Source of the DNA: an uncultured Erysipelothrix sp.
GTDB taxonomy: Bacteria > Bacillota_I > Bacilli_A > Erysipelotrichales > Erysipelotrichaceae
Reading direction: 5' to 3'
Assembly: GCA_947631935.1 (NCBI GenBank)
Contig: CANRNG010000002.1
Coordinates: forward strand, 1 to 64,000
DNA length: 64,000 nucleotides
The translations under genes and the position numbers were made by a program. This document shows positions 1-11,023 of this stretch, piece by piece. Position 1 is the first letter of the stretch, and the number at the start of each line of letters is the position of its first letter. The notes beneath the pieces were generated by a model. It had not been told where the DNA came from, ran no database searches, and saw only the letters and a list, made by a program, of their open reading frames with translations.

Positions 1-1397
1 TCAAACACTTGATTCTGTTTATAATCATAAACAAAAACCAATTGATCCTTTGCGCTTTCGATATAATCTGCATGAATTCCCATTTTAAAATGATGTTCCA
101 GTGGATACTTCAAACTCAAACTATAGGCACCTGGCTGTTTGATATATTGATAAATAGAGTTTGTGGTTAAAACTTCAATAAAATTAAAACTCAAGATCGC
201 ATCTTTATCCGATTTTTCATTAAAAATAAATTGAATTTTGGGGTTCATTTCCATATCCACCAAATGAATCACCAAATATTGTTCACTTTCTAATTTACCC
301 AATAACTCAGAAGGAACGACAATTTGATTAAAATAAGAAAAATTATCCCGCATCATCGCACTGGGTAAAGAGATATAAATATGACTGGTCTCATATAAGT
401 CCATATAGGTTGCAATTGAAGCAACAGGCAATTCCAAATCATAACGATTGTTATTGTAGTAAGTATCCTGATGAAGTGTTAAATGTAGACCTGCAGAACC
501 TTCATTATAAACATCCAAAGAAATGGTTTGAATTTCAGAGGTGGTTGCTTTTCTTTTGACTGTAACTTCAAGCTTTGCTTCTATATCATTCACCTTAGCA
601 ATAATAGAAGTTTCACCTTCTTTTAAACCCGTAATGATGCCATCTTCAAGTTGCACAATACTATTATCTGAAACCGTGTATTTTATATTCTTTTGAGTTG
701 TCGTATCATAAGGCACATAAATGATTTGAGGGATATTACGTTTTTCATCAATTTCCAAAACGATTTTATCTGGATTGAACTCCATTTTCTTAAGCGGTAC
801 TGTAACAAATAACTCCATTGTCTCAACGTGATTATCTAAAGTTGCTGTAATGGTTGTTTTACCAATTTTCAATCCTGTGACACGCCCATTTACAACCGTC
901 GCAACATCCGGATTGGATGAACGCCATACGACATTCGATTCATGAATCGTACTGGGCGAAATTTCAAATTCAATATCATAGTAAAGATCACGAATTAAGT
1001 AGAATGTGTTTTCTTTAAAGGTTATGGTTCCGGTTAAAGGCAATACCGTAATCGAAAAATCTTGGGTATAGTGTTCTTCTTTATTATCAACACGCACCAA
1101 AAGTGTGACCGTTGCATTACCGGCAGCTTTCCCCGTAATCGTAAGTTCTCCATTCAAAAGCTCAGCAACTACCACATCTGTATTTGACGATGTGACGATG
1201 GTTTTATAAGGTTCTTCCAATACAATTGAATAAGGAATGGTTTGCGTGGTGTTCACATCAATTTGGTAAGCATCCCTTTGCACCACGATAACGGGATCTG
1301 CTTCTACTAAAGGTTCACTATCCTGAGCCAAAATTGGGTTAAAAAAAACAAACGCCAATAAGGATAAAATCAATACTTGCTTGATAAAATTTTGCAT
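1..1397 (-). CDS. Secreted protein with repeated bacterial Ig-like (Big_2-like) domains; C-terminus runs off the window
   Basis: Not in the ORF track because it runs off the edge. Translates from ATG at 1397 (MQNFIKQVLILSLLAFVFFNPILAQDSEP..., signal peptide) with a strong RBS (aaggaggt). Repeated motifs such as SSNPDVATVVNGRVTGLKIGKTTITA and SDNSIVQLEDGIITGLKEGETSIIAKV are typical of Big_2. Confidence 0.75.
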   Translation of the reverse strand, partial: MQNFIKQVLILSLLAFVFFNPILAQDSEPLVEADPVIVVQRDAYQIDVNTTQTIPYSIVLEEPYKTIVTSSNTDVVVAELLNGELTITGKAAGNATVTLLVRVDNKEEHYTQDFSITVLPLTGTITFKENTFYLIRDLYYDIEFEISPSTIHESNVVWRSSNPDVATVVNGRVTGLKIGKTTITATLDNHVETMELFVTVPLKKMEFNPDKIVLEIDEKRNIPQIIYVPYDTTTQKNIKYTVSDNSIVQLEDGIITGLKEGETSIIAKVNDIEAKLEVTVKRKATTSEIQTISLDVYNEGSAGLHLTLHQDTYYNNNRYDLELPVASIATYMDLYETSHIYISLPSAMMRDNFSYFNQIVVPSELLGKLESEQYLVIHLVDMEMNPKIQFIFNEKSDKDAILSFNFIEVLTTNSIYQYIKQPGAYSLSLKYPLEHHFKMGIHADYIESAKDQLVFVYDYKQNQVF

Positions 1398-1417: not shown

Positions 1418-2968
1418 TTATTTTAACATATCTATTTGAAAAGATAATTTGAATCTTGGGTGAAATTGAAAACTCCCAACCAAAACTTCTGCAGCATTCA
1501 AATCTTTGGGTGTTGCAGTGGCATTAAAGTAAACCGCATCTTTAAACCAATAATTGCTAAAGACATATTTATAACCAAAACCATTCAACTTAACCATTTT
1601 ATAATCCAAGGGTTTATCAATCGCAAACAGCGGTAATTTAAAACCTTCACCAAAGGGTTCAAATTGATTCAAGTTTTTAAAATCAACATCCTGAAGTTTT
1701 TCTTCAAGATAGACAATTTCAGATGTGGTAGAAACATCCTTTAATGTCGCAACCACGGCCTCTACATCACGTTTGAAGTTTTCGAAATGAGATACTTTTA
1801 TACTCATTCCAAAAGCAAAATCATGTCCTCCGAAGGCTTCAAAATAATCTGGATTTAAATGATCAAATAAAGACTTGAGCGAAATCGTATTGGAACGGGC
1901 ACTCCCCTTATAGACCTGACCTGACTTTTTTAAAATGAATGCAGGCTTCTCGGTTAGATTGATAACTTGATTGGCAACAATCCCCAAAACCCCCTCATGG
2001 AAGCTATCATCCACAATTACATCTACCAAACCAGAACCCATTTTTGAGATCGCAATATCTTTTGCGATTTGACCTTTTTTCTTACGCACATCATCAATCA
2101 CAAAAATTTGACTGGCATAATTCTTAATCAACTGGGCATCATCACTCAATAAATAGGCCACCATCGTATTCATATTGACTTGATCCGCCATCCTACCTAT
2201 TGAGTTGATCTTTGGAATGACTTTAAAAGCCAAGACCGTTGCGTCATACGCTGTTTGTTTGGATATGGCATCAATATTTAAAATAGCGTTTTCATTTAAT
2301 ACCTTTAATCCAGCCTTAATGATTTCACGATTCTTGCCCCAAACAGGCATCACATCCGCAATGGTCGCCAAGGCGGCATAGGCTTTAATTTTAGGGGTCA
2401 AATAACCCACGTGTTCTGCAACCAAATACATCAAGCCACTGGCACACATGCTCCCAAAGTATGCATCCAAGTAGTGTGAATGCAGTAAAGGCACCTCTAA
2501 TTTTGATTCAATGAGATGGTGATCAACCACCGCAACTTTCATTCCCAGTGAAAGCGCATGTTTAATCTCAAGTTGTGCCTTAACACCATTATCAACCAAG
2601 AGTAAGTGTGTATAGCCCTTTTCATGGGCCATATCGACCGTATTTACGGAAATACCATAACCCTCATCAAAACGATTTGGAATATAGTATCCTACAGCAT
2701 CTACCCCCAAATGATGGGCAAGCGTTTTAGCAATGGCGGTACTACAAACACCATCCGCATCGTAGTCTCCCCCAATCATTAATTTATCGGCACCCTTTAT
2801 AAAATCAGCGATTTCGCTGACAGAAGGATGATCACATTGCTGATGCACATCATGCATAAGCTCATAGACCCTTTCATCACTTAAATTCAAAATCCCCATT
2901 ATTTTTTGAATAAAGGTACCGTATCCTTCAAAACGCGGATCCTTTTCCAATTGACTATATGCGACCAT
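1418..2968 (-). CDS. recJ: RecJ-like single-stranded-DNA exonuclease (DHH/DHHA1)
   Basis: MIGGDYDADGVCSTAIA, VDHH motif, GGHDFAFG (DHHA1) motif. Confidence 0.85.
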   Translation of the reverse strand: MVAYSQLEKDPRFEGYGTFIQKIMGILNLSDERVYELMHDVHQQCDHPSVSEIADFIKGADKLMIGGDYDADGVCSTAIAKTLAHHLGVDAVGYYIPNRFDEGYGISVNTVDMAHEKGYTHLLLVDNGVKAQLEIKHALSLGMKVAVVDHHLIESKLEVPLLHSHYLDAYFGSMCASGLMYLVAEHVGYLTPKIKAYAALATIADVMPVWGKNREIIKAGLKVLNENAILNIDAISKQTAYDATVLAFKVIPKINSIGRMADQVNMNTMVAYLLSDDAQLIKNYASQIFVIDDVRKKKGQIAKDIAISKMGSGLVDVIVDDSFHEGVLGIVANQVINLTEKPAFILKKSGQVYKGSARSNTISLKSLFDHLNPDYFEAFGGHDFAFGMSIKVSHFENFKRDVEAVVATLKDVSTTSEIVYLEEKLQDVDFKNLNQFEPFGEGFKLPLFAIDKPLDYKMVKLNGFGYKYVFSNYWFKDAVYFNATATPKDLNAAEVLVGSFQFHPRFKLSFQIDMLK

Positions 2969-4598
2969 AACTCACTATCCTTCTCATCATCCATCCAAAA
3001 ATTAACATCGATGTTATCGATAGCATCAATAACACGGTTGATTCGACTACAAAACTAAAATTCGTTGAAACAAAAAGTAAAATGGGTAAGTAAATTAAAA
3101 CAAGAATGGTAGCATTACGCGACACAAAATTTAAAATACCCGTCTCCGTAAATAAATCCTCAGAAATTTGAACAATCATAAAATTATAAATCAAATTGAA
3201 GCGAATCATTGAAATCATGGGTACACTTACTGGAACCTTATAGATATTCACAAATAAATATAAGAAAATGTAAGACCCTATGGTTAAGACGATATACTGT
3301 AAAGCATGGACTTTGGATCTGATTAAATACATCACAACGGCCAAAACCAAGACACTCATCATAATAAGAAAATCAAAGACATAGGATTCAAATAGAAAAG
3401 TCTCTAAATTCGTAGCATAAACTTGGCTCACTGAATCCAATTTAATATCAATGTCATCTTTGACTGCCCTTAACATGGTTTGATCTGTTAGAGAATCAAA
3501 GATGAACCAAGTTTCCATTTCTTCACTGATATTATACTCAATCACGTGATCCATCAATCCGTAACGACCCAAGGATCCTTGAACCTCAAGGAAACTGGAA
3601 ACATCATTTTTATTCACCACTAAAATAGATTCTTGAGAAAAACCACTGCTATGCGGTGTCGTCTCACTTTGAATCGTTCCGAAAATAATTGTCACAAAAA
3701 GAATCAAAAGCCCAACCGCAAAAACTGCAATTTTATTGCTTAAGAAAAATGGGGCGTTAATACCAGAACGTTTTAAGAACAAGCGACCATAACTGGAGTC
3801 ATTCAAATAGTAAAGATAGAAATAATCCAATCCAAACCACAACACAAAAGCAAAGACAACTAAAAATAAACCTTGAAAGACTAAATAAAGGACAATAGAT
3901 ATAGAGATGACTGAATCATCTAAAAGATAAAACAATCCACCTAATAATAAGGTGTTTACCGCAATAATCCAAACATTGCGTGCCAATAACTTTGAACTTT
4001 CCTTTTCTAGTATGCGATTCATCAACCACAACATCAGATTCAATAGCATCAAAACATAACATAAAATTATAAACCAGGAATTACCATTTAAATAGAAATT
4101 GAGTTCTTTCCCAAAATAAACGGGTGTTAAAATAAATATTGTCATAACCAAACTCATAAAGAAGCCCAGTAAACGATAGCGATAGGTCCATAATGCGATG
4201 GTGATTCCAAAGAAAAGAACCATATACATTTGCATGGATAAAATTGTATAACCGATATTAGAAATAGAGCCAAAAGTCCCAGAATTTAAAATGGGTCTAT
4301 CCGACATGTAGCGTGTATAATAGGTCAAGATTCTCTCCATATCACCCACACCTTCAATTTTAATTAGCGAATAGCCATCTTTTAAATCAATGACCTCCAG
4401 TTCAGCATTATTTTGTGAAACCCTTTCTTGAAACTGAACAAAGTTACTAGAAGTTTCTACATCCTCTGAAATTATTAACAATTCACGACCAAATCCAGCG
4501 CCATAATTATAGTTGTTGGCACTCAAAATCAAATGTGAAACCACACTTAAGAGTAGTATAAATACAATACCCAGTCCGAACAGTTTGTTAAATTTCAC
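2955..4598 (-). CDS. 12-TM membrane protein with duplicated SecD/SecF-like topology (putative highly diverged SecDF)
   Basis: Two halves, each one TM + ~80-100 aa extracytoplasmic domain + five TMs; sits between a ComN-like gene and recJ. No clear SecD/SecF signature motifs seen. Confidence 0.5.
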   Translation of the reverse strand: MKFNKLFGLGIVFILLLSVVSHLILSANNYNYGAGFGRELLIISEDVETSSNFVQFQERVSQNNAELEVIDLKDGYSLIKIEGVGDMERILTYYTRYMSDRPILNSGTFGSISNIGYTILSMQMYMVLFFGITIALWTYRYRLLGFFMSLVMTIFILTPVYFGKELNFYLNGNSWFIILCYVLMLLNLMLWLMNRILEKESSKLLARNVWIIAVNTLLLGGLFYLLDDSVISISIVLYLVFQGLFLVVFAFVLWFGLDYFYLYYLNDSSYGRLFLKRSGINAPFFLSNKIAVFAVGLLILFVTIIFGTIQSETTPHSSGFSQESILVVNKNDVSSFLEVQGSLGRYGLMDHVIEYNISEEMETWFIFDSLTDQTMLRAVKDDIDIKLDSVSQVYATNLETFLFESYVFDFLIMMSVLVLAVVMYLIRSKVHALQYIVLTIGSYIFLYLFVNIYKVPVSVPMISMIRFNLIYNFMIVQISEDLFTETGILNFVSRNATILVLIYLPILLFVSTNFSFVVESTVLLMLSITSMLIFGWMMRRIVSYGRI

Positions 4599-4876
4599 CG
4601 TAAAACTCCTTGCAGGATTTTATCCAATCCTTCTTTACTGGTATTCATCGTCGCATCCAACGTTAAATAACGAATAATTTCATCCGTAGATATATTGAGA
4701 ATTCTATCCGTCAACTCATGCAAAAACTGTGGTTTTTGTCTTTTAAAAACCAGTTTCGAAAAAATACGTTCTAAATCATCAAATCGTATTTGATCAAACC
4801 CTTCTTGTTGTAGCTTTCTGAGTCTGATAGAAATTAAGAGCTCAATATATTGTTGATTCATATCCATTAAAAACAC
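4595..4876 (-). CDS. Small ComN-like post-transcriptional regulator family protein
   Basis: 93 aa (SIRLRKLQQEGFDQIRFDDLERIF...LTDRILNISTDEIIRYLTLDA); small size, fold pattern and position upstream of the SecDF-like gene match ComN. Confidence 0.5.
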   Translation of the reverse strand: MFLMDMNQQYIELLISIRLRKLQQEGFDQIRFDDLERIFSKLVFKRQKPQFLHELTDRILNISTDEIIRYLTLDATMNTSKEGLDKILQGVLR

Positions 4877-4912
4877 CTCTAGTTTATATTATAACACGGT
4901 CACAAAATAAAA

Positions 4913-4930
4913 AAAGGTATCGCTACCTTT
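4913..4930 (-). terminator. Rho-independent terminator at murD 3' end
   Basis: AAAGGTA-loop-TACCTTT followed by T-run on the minus strand, overlapping the murD end. Confidence 0.6.
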
Positions 4931-6200
4931 CTTTAAGTTTATTTACCATATTTTTAAAAGCAATACCCCTGGCTTCGAAATTCTCAAATTGATCATAAGA
5001 AGCACATGCTGGTGATAAAAGAATGACATCCCCCACCTCTGATATTGTCATTGCCTTATCCAAAGCATCCTGCATAGCGTCCACAATATAGGCTTCTTTA
5101 AATACTTGTTTTAACAAGTATTTACTTTCACCAAATAAAATAACCGCTTTGGGATTAAATTGAGACAACAAATCGAATTTAATCTTTTTATCATACCCAC
5201 CCGCCAATAAAATTACAGGTTTATCAAAGGATTGCAATGCTTTTTCAGTGCTTTCAGGATTGGTTGCCTTAGAATCATTGTAAAATACCCTTCCATCAAG
5301 GGTATCTACATATTCCAATCGATGCTCAACACCTTTAAAGCTTGAAACAACCGCTTGAATATCTATTAGTGATACACCCGCTAAATAAGCCATGGTGCTC
5401 GCAAACATCATATTTAATAGATTATGTGCTCCCACCAGTTTCATCGTTTGAGTTTCAAACAACATGACCGTTTTGAAATATACTTTTTGATCAATAATAT
5501 AAATATCTGCTTTTTTAGTAAGGGATAAATCAAGTGTATTTTTATTTTTATTGGTAAGTTTAACGATATTTTTATCATCAATATTACGGATAAAAATATC
5601 GGCTTGATCCACGATCTTTAATTTGGCTTGGTAGTAATCATTTTCATCTTGATAGCGATCCAAATGATCGGGTGTCAAGTTTAATAAGCCATAAACCTTG
5701 GGTTTGAAGTTGGGTGTTCCTTCCATTTGAAACGCTGATATTTCAATCGCAACGTCAATGGGGATATCTTTAGTTTCCAAAACGACTTCACTCAAAGAAA
5801 CCCCAATATTCCCGGCCAAAACGGCAGATTCATTTTTGCGCTTCAACATTTCATAAAGTATTGAAGTCGTTGTCGTTTTACCATTGGTTCCAGATATCGC
5901 ATAGTACAGACCTTGGGAGTGAAATCTAAAAGCAAGATCAATTTCATTTAAAACCGTCTTGAATCGTTTCACCAATGGGTGATCATTTGGAATTCCAGGA
6001 TTTTTTACAACCAAATCAAAATGGTCAAAGCGATCTGTATCAGCGTCATCCAAGATAACCTCAATTCCCCCATCTTCCAGTTCTTTTCTTTTATCAAAGT
6101 CATCACGAGCGACCAATACAACGTGGTATCCCAGATGTTTTAATAGTAAGGCAGCACCACTACCACTCCGTGCACCACCGATAACCAGTGCATTTTTCAT
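4923..6200 (-). CDS. murD: UDP-N-acetylmuramoylalanine--D-glutamate ligase
   Basis: SGTNGKTTTTSILYEML P-loop, LAGNIGVSLSE, HRLEYVDTLDGRVFYNDSKATNPEST. Confidence 0.95.
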   Translation of the reverse strand: MKNALVIGGARSGSGAALLLKHLGYHVVLVARDDFDKRKELEDGGIEVILDDADTDRFDHFDLVVKNPGIPNDHPLVKRFKTVLNEIDLAFRFHSQGLYYAISGTNGKTTTTSILYEMLKRKNESAVLAGNIGVSLSEVVLETKDIPIDVAIEISAFQMEGTPNFKPKVYGLLNLTPDHLDRYQDENDYYQAKLKIVDQADIFIRNIDDKNIVKLTNKNKNTLDLSLTKKADIYIIDQKVYFKTVMLFETQTMKLVGAHNLLNMMFASTMAYLAGVSLIDIQAVVSSFKGVEHRLEYVDTLDGRVFYNDSKATNPESTEKALQSFDKPVILLAGGYDKKIKFDLLSQFNPKAVILFGESKYLLKQVFKEAYIVDAMQDALDKAMTISEVGDVILLSPACASYDQFENFEARGIAFKNMVNKLKER

Positions 6201-7154
6201 TTAAATCAATCCTATCCAATAGCCAATCAATGCAAATACAAGCGCTAAAATCCAAAAGAAGTGCACCACACGGTGTTCCTTCCAACCACTAATAATAAAA
6301 CTATAGTGAATCGGTGTATATTTGAATACACGTTTACGCGTAAATTTAAAGACAACTTGTTGAATCACAACAGTCACGGTCTCATAAACAAAGACACCCC
6401 CGATAACAATCGATAAAACTTCAATTTTTAGGTATACAGAAGCAATCGCAAATAAAGCACCCAAAGCCAATGATCCGACATCGCCCATAAATATTTTTGC
6501 AGGCGCATAATTATAAACTAGGAAAGCAAATAAAGCCCCTAAAACAGCAAATAGAAATATAGCCAATTCAGGTTCTACACCTACAGCCATGATTAATAAC
6601 GGTACTAAAGCAATGATGGTGGTACCAGAAGCCAATCCATCCATACCATCGGTTAGGTTTACAGCATTTGAATAGGCCATAAACATAAAAACAACAAACG
6701 CAAAATAGAAATATCCCAAATCAATTGATGCGTTGATAATCGGAATTCGAAGGGTATTATCCCCACCCATTTTTAGATATAAGGCATAGAAGATGGCTGC
6801 AATGATGAATTGCACCATTAATTTTGTTTTTGCGGACAAACCATCATTCTTACCCTCTTTGATAATTTTATAATCATCAATAAAGCCCAGTAATCCATAA
6901 CTCAAATAAACAATGATCAATGAAATATATTTTAAATTTAATGATTTAATAGACAAAACAAAGGATACGATAATGGGTAATAATACAAAGAGCACACCCC
7001 CAAAGGTTACCGTTTTTTCTTTTTCCTTAAATTCATCTAAGGCATATTCACTGACCTCTTGTTGGGCTAAAGACGTCTTTAAAAACGCAATAAACCGAGG
7101 GTATAGTATAAACCCCAAAATAAATGTCGTAACAAATGCAATATATCCTATCAT
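6201..7154 (-). CDS. mraY: Phospho-N-acetylmuramoyl-pentapeptide transferase
   Basis: NAVNLTDGMDGLASG, FMGDVGSLALGA; polytopic; next to murD. Confidence 0.95.
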   Translation of the reverse strand: MIGYIAFVTTFILGFILYPRFIAFLKTSLAQQEVSEYALDEFKEKEKTVTFGGVLFVLLPIIVSFVLSIKSLNLKYISLIIVYLSYGLLGFIDDYKIIKEGKNDGLSAKTKLMVQFIIAAIFYALYLKMGGDNTLRIPIINASIDLGYFYFAFVVFMFMAYSNAVNLTDGMDGLASGTTIIALVPLLIMAVGVEPELAIFLFAVLGALFAFLVYNYAPAKIFMGDVGSLALGALFAIASVYLKIEVLSIVIGGVFVYETVTVVIQQVVFKFTRKRVFKYTPIHYSFIISGWKEHRVVHFFWILALVFALIGYWIGLI

Positions 7155-7165
7155 GTAAATACTTC

Positions 7166-9334
7166 CTATTCTAATTCAACTGTTAAGGTCATATCCTTAA
7201 CCACAGCCGTCCCTACAGGGTAGGATTGTGTCTTCACAAAACCACTTCCAGAAATGACCACTTCTATTTTAGCAAAATTCGACCAAGCATTCACCTCTTT
7301 TAGTGACCAATTTTTCAAATCAGGAATTACCAGACCCTCTTTTTTAGTTAAAAGAATCACACGTTCACTATTCAGTAAAGTTACGCCTTGTTTGGGATAT
7401 TGATCTATAACCGTAGATCCATTACCCAAAACAACCACATTATATCCCTGTTCCTTTAATTCATTGCGAACATCAACCACAGGACGATTGATATAATTTT
7501 CAATTTCAGATTTATGAACTACTTTATCATCATCATCACTGGTACCATTGGTTTCTGATGGATAGGTTGAAATGACGGTTTTTATGACATCTTTAACTTC
7601 TTCAGCCGCACTCCAAGTACGGTGTCCATCATTGGCGATATATGCGTAGTAAAACACATACTCAGGATCTTCATATGGAAAAGCCAATACTGCTGAATAC
7701 AAATAGGTGCTTTTACTATATTGACCATCAATAACCATTTCTGCTGTACCACTTTTACCCATGATACTGACTTCATCCATCTTATAACGATGGTTTCCAA
7801 ATGTTTGGACATTGACGTTTTCATACAAGGCATCGCGGACCAACTGTACCGTTTCTTCTTTAAATACTTTTTCACCTTTTTGAACTTTTGCTTGAAACTC
7901 AACATTGCCAGTATTTGGATCAATAATAGAATCAACAATATAAGGTTTAATAACAGTACCATCACCAAAAACGGCTGAATGGCTTTGTAGTATTTGTAGC
8001 ATGGTTACGGTAGAACCCTGACCAAATCCATTGGTAATTTTTTCATGGTGATAACCCCAAAGTTCAGTCCCAGTTGCCTCAGGTACCCGTCCAAAACCTG
8101 TTTTTTCATAAAATCCCAAACGGTGCATATAATCTTGAAATATATCGGGATTCATTTTATTGGTTAAAAGTTCCGCAATCATAACGTTAGAGGATCTTTG
8201 AAATCCTTCTTTAAATGTGATAATTGGATAAACTTCACCAGAAGGGTTATGAATCGTAACCGTATAAGGTCCTGGCGTACTGGCTCTTGAGACAGCCCCT
8301 GTATCAGGATCCGTTCTTAAATAAAATGGTTTTCCATCATAAAGATCTTCTGGAGAAATGGCCCCTTCATTGATACCCACTGCATAGGTAATGGTTTTCA
8401 TAGTTGAACCTGGCTCATACTCATATTCTGTCGCCCGGTTTAAGTACAATGTATTGGGATCTTCAACATCAAACGAAGGCGCATCTGATATCGCCAAGAT
8501 GGCACCCGTTTTGACATTCATAATTGCACCCCAAGCTTCTGAAGCTTGGATATCTTCTTTGTTTATAAATTGATTTAAAGCATTGTCCAGTGAAGACTGA
8601 ATAATTTTGTCGATGGTTAATTTAACATTCTTACCATCTGTTGCTTCATGAGATAAGGAGTCGATCGTATCAAAACGATACATACCACTATCCTGACGAT
8701 AGACCTCTACACCATTTTCGCCATTTAAAACATCATCATAGTATTCTTCAATCCCCATGACACCCACTTGTTGCTCAAGCTTTTCATCAAAGACCGTTAA
8801 ACCCAAAAGTGTGGTCGCAAAGCGACTGGAGTAATAATCACGTTTAATAGCAGGGGTAAATCCCAAACCAGTTATCCCAGAGTTTTCCAAGGCTTCTTTT
8901 TGTTGAACTGTCACGTATTTGCCATAGGTACCAAATTCAATTTGTTTGGCATCGGCATTGAGTCTTTCATACACAAAATCATAAGGCGCACTAAGGATTG
9001 TTGAAATGGTAGTCGCAGCCGCTTCCTTATCTGTAACATAAGCGGGTACATTACCAATATCAAAACGATCTTCTGCAATATAGGCATTGAGGGTATAGGT
9101 ATTCATATCTTCTACCAAAATATTATTTTTAATATCTAAGATATTTCCCCTTTTTGCATATATGGGTTGTTCTACCGTATGAATTCCTTGAACAACTTCT
9201 TTAACATTGGTTCCTGAATTCACATGATAACCCAGAACAGACACTATAAAAACATTGACTGTGAGCACAGAAAATACGATCACAATCAATGTAAATACTT
9301 TAAGAATTCTTCTGTTCTGAAACTTTTTCACCAC
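7166..9334 (-). CDS. pbpB: Division-type penicillin-binding protein (transpeptidase) with C-terminal PASTA domains
   Basis: YEPGSTMKT, QRSSNV, MGKSGTAEM motifs; PASTA-like C-terminus; dcw position. Confidence 0.9.
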   Translation of the reverse strand: MVKKFQNRRILKVFTLIVIVFSVLTVNVFIVSVLGYHVNSGTNVKEVVQGIHTVEQPIYAKRGNILDIKNNILVEDMNTYTLNAYIAEDRFDIGNVPAYVTDKEAAATTISTILSAPYDFVYERLNADAKQIEFGTYGKYVTVQQKEALENSGITGLGFTPAIKRDYYSSRFATTLLGLTVFDEKLEQQVGVMGIEEYYDDVLNGENGVEVYRQDSGMYRFDTIDSLSHEATDGKNVKLTIDKIIQSSLDNALNQFINKEDIQASEAWGAIMNVKTGAILAISDAPSFDVEDPNTLYLNRATEYEYEPGSTMKTITYAVGINEGAISPEDLYDGKPFYLRTDPDTGAVSRASTPGPYTVTIHNPSGEVYPIITFKEGFQRSSNVMIAELLTNKMNPDIFQDYMHRLGFYEKTGFGRVPEATGTELWGYHHEKITNGFGQGSTVTMLQILQSHSAVFGDGTVIKPYIVDSIIDPNTGNVEFQAKVQKGEKVFKEETVQLVRDALYENVNVQTFGNHRYKMDEVSIMGKSGTAEMVIDGQYSKSTYLYSAVLAFPYEDPEYVFYYAYIANDGHRTWSAAEEVKDVIKTVISTYPSETNGTSDDDDKVVHKSEIENYINRPVVDVRNELKEQGYNVVVLGNGSTVIDQYPKQGVTLLNSERVILLTKKEGLVIPDLKNWSLKEVNAWSNFAKIEVVISGSGFVKTQSYPVGTAVVKDMTLTVELE

Positions 9335-9639
9335 TAATCACCCAAGTTGACAAATACAGAGTTTTCGGTGAAATGTTGTAAGCCGGCTTGTTCTGCTTTT
9401 TCCACGATGTTTGCATAATCACCCAAAGCATTTGCCTCTCTTAAAAGTGTTTCATTGGTACGTTTTACTGCATCAATCGCAATGTTGGTGCTTTCTATTT
9501 GACGGGCCACTTTTGCGTTATCTGAGCGCACGAATACAGCAGACGTAAACCAAAAACCAATTGCGAGTATCAGCGTTAATTGTGCCACTGCTGACCAATT
9601 AATTTTTCTAACTGTTCTTTTCTTGATAATTTTAGCCAT
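9334..9639 (-). CDS. ftsL: Cell division protein FtsL-like
   Basis: Small single-TM coiled-coil protein between rsmH and pbp. Confidence 0.7.
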   Translation of the reverse strand: MAKIIKKRTVRKINWSAVAQLTLILAIGFWFTSAVFVRSDNAKVARQIESTNIAIDAVKRTNETLLREANALGDYANIVEKAEQAGLQHFTENSVFVNLGD

Positions 9640-10543
9640 CTTCATGCGTCCTTTCTATACAACGTAAGATTGCACTGTGTGCCCTGTTGTTACTTTCGAT
9701 TTCATCTTTGGAAGGTTTTAATGCCTTATGAATCCATTTAAAATTGATATTTTTTTCAATTGGAACTGGAATTCTTGGATCTACCTTTTCAGGTGTAGCC
9801 CATTCATTCATCAAGTTCTTTACCAAACGATCTTCAATTGAATGGAAGGTAATCACCACAAGTCTGCCTCCCACTTTCAAACGATTTTTAGCCTGAACTA
9901 AGGCCGATTCAATATCCCCCAATTCATTGTTGACTTCCATACGAATGGCTTGGAATGTTTTTTTAGCAGGATGTCCTTTACGCAAGGCGTAATTTGGATA
10001 CGCTTTTTTAATACATTCAACCAATTCAAAGGTGGTCATGACGGGTCTATTTTCAACAATATTTCTTACAATGCCTTTGGCATAGCGTTCATCAGCGTAA
10101 TTTTTCAAAATACGTTCCAGATGTTCAGGCTCATAAGTATTTACTACTTCATAGGCACTGAGAGCTTGAGTTTGATCCATTCGCATATCCAACGCATTAT
10201 CATAGCGATAGGAGAATCCACGATCTTGTTGATCAAATTGGGGAGAAGATACCCCCAAATCAAACAATGCCCCATCAATTTTATCGATTTCATTTTCATC
10301 CAAATGCTTCTCAATCATTGAAAATGAATCATGGATAAGAATCATCTTATTTAAATTTAATATTTCTTTTGCGTAGTTAATGGCATCCAAATCTTTATCA
10401 AAAGCCATCAACTTACCTGTATCTAATTGTTTGAGAATTTCCTGAGTATGACCAGCCCTTCCCAATGTTGCGTCAATGTAGACACCAGCTTCTTTTATAT
10501 CCAAAGCTTCAATGGATTCTTTTTTTAATACTGATATATGCAT
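9632..10543 (-). CDS. rsmH: 16S rRNA (cytosine(1402)-N(4))-methyltransferase
   Basis: MHISVLKKESIEAL, YIDATLGRAGHTQEIL, GALFDLGVSSPQFD, VITFHSIEDRLVK. Confidence 0.95.
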   Translation of the reverse strand: MHISVLKKESIEALDIKEAGVYIDATLGRAGHTQEILKQLDTGKLMAFDKDLDAINYAKEILNLNKMILIHDSFSMIEKHLDENEIDKIDGALFDLGVSSPQFDQQDRGFSYRYDNALDMRMDQTQALSAYEVVNTYEPEHLERILKNYADERYAKGIVRNIVENRPVMTTFELVECIKKAYPNYALRKGHPAKKTFQAIRMEVNNELGDIESALVQAKNRLKVGGRLVVITFHSIEDRLVKNLMNEWATPEKVDPRIPVPIEKNINFKWIHKALKPSKDEIESNNRAHSAILRCIERTHEDG

Positions 10544-10971
10544 TAGAAGAACTCCGTTAGCGTTTCCGCAATATCTTCGAAACTTTCACTCGCAACATCA
10601 TAGTATGCGTTCCAGCGGTCTAAGTCCCAAATCTCAACATGATCACTTACCCCAATCACAACACATTCTTTATCCAAAGATGCTTCTTTGATAAGGGGTT
10701 GGGGTAAACGAATTCTACCTTGAGAATCTACGGTACATTCTGAAGCTTTAGCCATGATCATGTGCGTAAAGCGACGGGCTTCTCTTTTGGTAGCAGGTAA
10801 TGCCTGTAGTTTTTCGTAAAGTGCTTGCCATTTTTCCATGGTATAAATTGCCAAACATCCATCGAGCCAACGTGTTACAACCATTTCATCGCCCAAACCA
10901 TCACGAAACTTCGCAGGAATGATAATGCGACCTTTGGTATCTAAATTGTGTTGGAATTCACCCATGAACAT
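10543..10971 (-). CDS. mraZ: Transcriptional regulator MraZ
   Basis: MFMGEFQHNLDTKGRIIIPAKFRDGLG, SQGRIRLPQPL. Confidence 0.95.
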   Translation of the reverse strand: MFMGEFQHNLDTKGRIIIPAKFRDGLGDEMVVTRWLDGCLAIYTMEKWQALYEKLQALPATKREARRFTHMIMAKASECTVDSQGRIRLPQPLIKEASLDKECVVIGVSDHVEIWDLDRWNAYYDVASESFEDIAETLTEFF

Positions 10972-10980
10972 CTTGAAATT

Positions 10981-11023
10981 CACCACTTTCTACCACTTAT
11001 ACCCACTTTCTACCACAATTATA
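10981..11023 (-). promoter_or_regulatory. mraZ/dcw promoter with MraZ-box array
   Basis: Minus strand: TATAAT (11018-11023) then GTGGTAGAAA GTGGGTATAA GTGGTAGAAA GTGGTGAATT with 10-bp period. Confidence 0.8.

Follow-up and report, generated by a model that had tools for sequence, protein, structure and literature searches.

A SecDF derivative without proton relay or P1 head occupies the comN-recJ slot of Erysipelothrix

Introduction

What occupies the gene slot between comN and recJ in Erysipelothrix, a genus that includes an animal pathogen, and why is it kept there? SecDF assists the protein-export channel as an accessory motor, and the head of its P1 domain grasps the substrate. We analyzed a 64,000-nucleotide stretch of DNA from an uncultured Erysipelothrix sp. 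(contig CANRNG010000002.1, positions 1 to 64,000; hereafter the window), in which this slot encodes a 547-aa membrane protein. A sequence-only reading of the window had proposed that the protein is a highly diverged SecDF with a ComN-like partner, a relic or repurposed derivative whose P1 and P4 domains and conserved transmembrane (TM) residues have eroded. Here we follow that proposal through homology, anatomy, the history of the slot and selection.

Results

Gene order at the locus

The open reading frame, its neighbors and their 4-nt and 14-nt overlaps are as the sequence-only reading had described them:

1418..2968, minus strand: recJ (DHH/DHHA1); it starts within the SecDF gene, with a 14-nt overlap
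2955..4598, minus strand: SecDF derivative (relay-less, headless), 547 aa; its GTG start overlaps the comN stop by 4 nt; assigned from orthologues, slot and hhalign
4595..4867, minus strand: comN-type gene (Post_transc_reg), 90 aa from the ATG at 4867; PF13797 E 1.2e-9
4888..4896, minus strand: TGtTATAAT, resembling an extended -10 promoter element and lying beyond the murD end; read from the sequence

By Pfam, the recJ product carries DHH (2.9e-15) and DHHA1 (2.2e-10) domains, and the upstream ORF, earlier likened to the ComN family, indeed matches Post_transc_reg (38.2 bits against a cut-off of 25). Reaching to the GTG at 4876, this ORF (4595..4876) would encode 93 aa; the ATG at 4867 is the more likely start, however, because of the extended -10 element TGtTATAAT at 4896..4888, which is absent from the output of a consensus promoter scan and was found by reading the sequence only. 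A comN-secDF-recJ transcript would probably begin from this element. In B. subtilis, ComN exerts post-transcriptional control of comE, and its polar localization depends on DivIVA. The comN-secDF pair of B. subtilis has been handled as a single transcript (PMC8637298).

Inspection by eye of the flanking DNA, also on the minus strand, places a large protein with repeats like bacterial Ig-like (Big_2) domains directly after recJ (window 3..1397), and a cluster of cell-wall and division ORFs directly upstream of comN (4923..10986; murD, mraY, a penicillin-binding protein, an ftsL-like gene, rsmH/mraW and mraZ). In two Erysipelothrix clades (loci L002, L037, L004 and L005, and likewise L038 and L039), conservation of the DNA is far higher across the final ~40 nt of murD, the gap that follows and comN itself than in the flanks; within those clades comN has a pS of 0.03-0.18, against 0.2-0.7 for its neighbors, with saturation between clades. 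Either synonymous constraint or local recombination could account for this pattern.

An orthologue in every Erysipelothrix genome

An orthologue of the 547-aa protein (hereafter X) is present in 13 of 13 Erysipelothrix genomes, with named records from Erysipelothrix tonsillarum, E. anatis, E. aquatica and Erysipelothrix sp. HDW6A that place the window in this genus; the order murD-comN-X-recJ is common to these genomes (n = 13; in locus L036, murD lies beyond the fetched stretch). Because an orthologue fills the same slot throughout the genus, the ORF is, on this comparative evidence, no chance ORF. The headless form described below is likewise genus-wide and no peculiarity of the window's genome. 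PF02355 (SecD_SecF_C) has no match above cut-off in any of the 13 genomes, and a search of the window's genome (1.56 Mb, 98% complete), which the earlier reading had called for, found no canonical SecDF elsewhere. YidC is present in all 13.

A profile (A1) built from the alignment of the 13 proteins gave strong matches only within Erysipelothrix among the 395 genomes of the class that were searched. Within the family there was one further match, to the P4-less SecDF of G026 (genus g27), a form described below; two matches outside the family, at ~20 bits in hmmsearch, are an SMC-like ATPase and an MFS transporter and were rejected as false.

Homology to SecDF

Single-sequence comparison with Pfam and NCBIfam and a profile search of PDB sequences gave no useful match for the 547-aa protein. 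A PapG_C match (0.017, under the cut-off) is taken to be a chance one, and a locus search of related genomes with the window protein as query returned no match. Matches of A1 to canonical SecDF at 18-25 bits (hmmsearch) were not used alone as evidence, because unrelated proteins also reach ~20 bits. These blank single-sequence searches and the false matches near 20 bits would fit a reading in which X is not a SecDF at all, and another RND/MMPL-type or unrelated 12-TM protein has come to occupy the slot.

Profile-profile alignment argues against such a replacement. Using hhalign, A1 aligned to a profile of canonical SecDF alone with an E of 2.8e-11, and to a profile of canonical plus intermediate SecDF with a local E of 2.2e-18 over 554 of 568 columns; the homology spans both halves of the Erysipelothrix protein. 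The latter alignment has a global score of 153.7; reversed profiles scored 10.4-13.6, and none of 20 block shuffles exceeded 30.1. Fold comparison gave a divided result from AlphaFold models that are poor (mean pLDDT 48-51) and too weak for residue-level claims. With the weak model of the E. tonsillarum protein (five-sequence alignment, pLDDT 51), the best Foldseek match among 350,542 PDB chains is SecDF (5xan_B, E 8.7e-4), followed by further SecDF and RND pumps, with low TM-scores; by contrast, the window protein's own model matched only ferredoxin-like domains and no SecDF. Together, the controlled profile-profile alignment, synteny, the intermediate SecDF of the g50 sister lineage (below) and the fold search provide good support for descent from SecDF, as first proposed, and make an origin outside SecDF exceedingly improbable. 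Such erosion of the sequence would account for the failure of model-based searches to detect a SecDF in Erysipelothrix.

Anatomy of a stripped SecDF

The protein has the topology TM1, an ectodomain of ~80 aa, five TM helices, TM7, an ectodomain of ~85 aa and five further TM helices. This agrees with the two-half plan read earlier from the sequence (1+5 and 1+5, with ectodomains after TM1 and TM7), in part on the strength of low-confidence models. Three segments stand out:

4266..4502, minus strand: ectodomain 1, residues 33-111; ferredoxin domain like the P1 base, with no P1 head
4005..4085, minus strand: helix equivalent to SecD TM4, about residues 172-198; proton-relay Asp of canonical GMAVDSN absent
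3384..3644, minus strand: ectodomain 2, residues 319-405; P4-like ferredoxin domain; FLEvQxxL ... TWxxFD

A ferredoxin-like beta-alpha order is predicted in each ectodomain (DSSP of the low-confidence AlphaFold models). In ectodomain 1, GxGFGRE replaces GLDLQGG and a (T)FGS motif lies at the end of the domain. The P1 head, which in the canonical protein of locus L093 occupies roughly residues 130-244, is missing: ectodomain 1 is only ~80 aa long, the alignment has a gap across the head region, and a PF22599 search of the Erysipelothrix protein gave no match. Ectodomain 2, predicted as beta-alpha-beta-beta-alpha-beta, aligns to P4 in hhalign, and conservation is highest in the two ectodomains (values from TM1 through ectodomain 2). 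Erosion had been proposed for both P1 and P4; the loss of the P1 head bears this out for the former, whereas the conservation of the P4-like domain contradicts it for the latter. The Erysipelothrix form is a stripped SecDF, in which 12 TM helices and two ferredoxin-like ectodomains are kept and the head and relay Asp are lost.

Loss of the proton relay

In E. coli, both proton transport and the conformational cycle depend critically on D519 in TM4 of SecD and R247 of SecF (PMC8669966), and the P1 head is critical to translocation according to PMC9508474. All 13 canonical proteins have the TM4 Asp, whereas the 7 intermediate and 13 Erysipelothrix proteins all lack it. Across the 13 Erysipelothrix proteins, no TM core contains a conserved Asp, Glu, Lys or Arg, and the conserved charged columns are confined to loops and ectodomains. 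For the relay Arg of SecF (E. coli R247), the observation is that the TM cores as a whole hold no conserved Arg.

These observations bear on whether X might still be a motor, coupled to protons or sodium through other residues in a sequence that has merely drifted. Strong purifying selection (below) and the retained topology would fit such a motor. However, with 13 proteins offering no conserved Asp, Glu, Lys or Arg in their TM cores, and with the head that PMC9508474 considers critical missing, we regard continued motor activity as improbable.

History of the slot in the family

Other Erysipelotrichaceae genera encode a canonical SecDF of 760-770 aa in this place, immediately behind comN and close to or adjoining recJ; the slot and the linkage of comN, secDF and recJ are ancestral. 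In a single-gene RecJ tree (51 rows), g50 is the sister lineage of Erysipelothrix (support 100/97). The g50 SecDF (G049, L117) is 777 aa long, lacks the TM4 Asp and matches both the canonical (7e-37) and the Erysipelothrix (1.9e-9) profiles, and the motif runs from LGLDLQGG in canonical proteins through LGLGMGRD in g50 to GxGFGRD in Erysipelothrix. Because this sister form is full length yet without the Asp, with a motif that lies between the other two, the comparison suggests that the relay was lost first and the head second.

Genera g24 and g27 form a separate clade in the RecJ tree (100/99), and their SecDFs of 650-661 aa (L082-L084 and L086 in g27; L106 and L129 in g24) keep P1 and are without both P4 and the Asp. 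The family therefore holds at least two separate relay-less SecDF lineages. The P4-less genes lie in the same comN-recJ slot, with comN undetected in some of these loci.

Of 146 family genomes, ~61 encode a canonical SecDF, 10 the P4-less form, 1 the g50 form and 5 the Erysipelothrix form, and the remainder have no recognizable SecDF; these counts are approximate, as some genomes are incomplete. On well-supported branches of the RecJ tree the "lost" state needs at least six changes, and secDF is absent in the related genera g9 and g10. In several genera (L098, L103, L107, L114, L121, L123) secDF is gone and comN lies directly before recJ, with the neighbors kept.

YajC was tried as an indicator of a working SecDF complex and rejected, being present in genera without SecDF and missing in most genera with SecDF; because it does not track SecDF state, YajC in the window's genome lends no support to a Sec role. 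It is patchy across the family genomes, and genus g19 (G018, G068, G096) has two adjoining copies.

Selection on the remaining protein

Repeated loss of the gene elsewhere in the family raises the prospect that X is a decaying relic, on its way to the absence seen in neighboring genera. Divergence within the genus would fit, since X shares about 30% identity between Erysipelothrix subclades, against about 61% for recJ. By contrast, the gene is intact in 13 of 13 genomes and under strong constraint where dN/dS could be estimated, namely in the rhusiopathiae clade and the anatis/aquatica pair, the window's species having no close relative found. In the clade of L002, L037, L005 and L004, which we take to be that of E. 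rhusiopathiae from its named E. tonsillarum member (L134 = G109) and from knowledge of the genus, X has a dN/dS of 0.018-0.024, and the same pairs give higher values for recJ (0.040-0.045) and murD (0.045-0.075). The anatis/aquatica pair gives 0.055 for X, compared with 0.047-0.060 for canonical SecDF pairs and 0.12-0.22 for P4-less SecDF pairs (all Nei-Gojobori estimates, with the larger dS values near saturation). Because dN/dS is this low (0.018-0.055), X is, by the measure of sequence evolution, functional in both clades, and a relic on the way to loss is highly improbable. Of the two fates offered by the earlier reading, that of a relic therefore fails wherever it could be measured. The fast change between subclades fits a changed function as well as a relaxed one.

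Discussion

Descent, slot, retained fold and constraint lead us to think that X is probably a vertically inherited, non-motor SecDF that is kept as a passive subunit of the Sec holo-translocon. On this account, the secDF of Erysipelothrix would have been inherited vertically, the TM4 Asp of the relay lost in the ancestor common to Erysipelothrix and the g50 lineage, and the P1 head lost afterwards, in Erysipelothrix. The remaining 12-TM scaffold, with P1 base and P4, would bind SecYEG and/or YidC in the membrane; its ectodomains, lying over the channel exit, may stabilize the complex or hinder the back-sliding of emerging chains, with no proton-driven stroke.

The main rival is that SecDF has been repurposed and now serves other ends than Sec export, such as a lipid or cell-wall function or partnership with ComN at the membrane. 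The relay and head, the defining parts of the SecDF motor, are both lost, divergence between subclades was rapid before strong constraint set in inside one clade, and the tight linkage to comN is kept, all of which such a change of job would accommodate. However, the comN-secDF-recJ linkage is ancestral and hence does not point to a new partnership; X retains both ectodomains and the 12-TM plan of SecDF, and neither a new conserved polar site in the TM cores nor a new domain has appeared. We consider repurposing unlikely, although it is the alternative that most deserves attention.

If X is indeed a passive translocon subunit, it bears on what share of the benefit of SecDF is due to the proton-driven stroke, as opposed to mere membership in the holo-translocon. 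Erysipelothrix seems to have made this separation naturally, discarding relay and head while the rest is constrained as strongly as canonical SecDF. The chances are about even that the family records a SecDF retained by strong selection, after stepwise loss of its relay and then its substrate-binding head, as a translocon subunit that is useful for something other than the proton-driven pulling stroke, with a second clade also relay-less and having lost P4 instead. With five states of a single gene slot (canonical, relay-less full-length, headless, P4-less and absent), the family lends itself to a direct test of this question. In the open-access literature we found no description of a relay-less SecDF or of this Erysipelothrix protein.

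Comparison with known systems

Compared with the SecDF of Firmicutes such as B. subtilis (PF02355, PF21760, PF22599, PF07549), the Erysipelothrix form shares the slot after comN, the division of 12 TM helices into two halves, ferredoxin domains like the P1 base and P4, and vertical descent. It differs in its length (about 550-575 aa rather than 760-770), in having neither P1 head nor TM4 Asp, in GxGFGRD in place of GLDLQGG, and in escaping detection with Pfam models. SecDF2 of Vibrio, like other paralogues of SecDF, is also a variant of the SecDF motor, but those are ion-coupled (sodium) motors and not relay-less (PMC8082313). The g50 SecDF (G049, L117) is like the Erysipelothrix form in lacking the TM4 Asp and in its motif (GLGMGRD), whereas it is full length (777 aa) and retains a weak P1-head match (PF22599 E 0.002). 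Finally, the P4-less SecDFs of g24 and g27 occupy the same slot and also lack the TM4 Asp; they belong to a separate clade, however, and with P1 kept and P4 lost they are the mirror image of the Erysipelothrix form.
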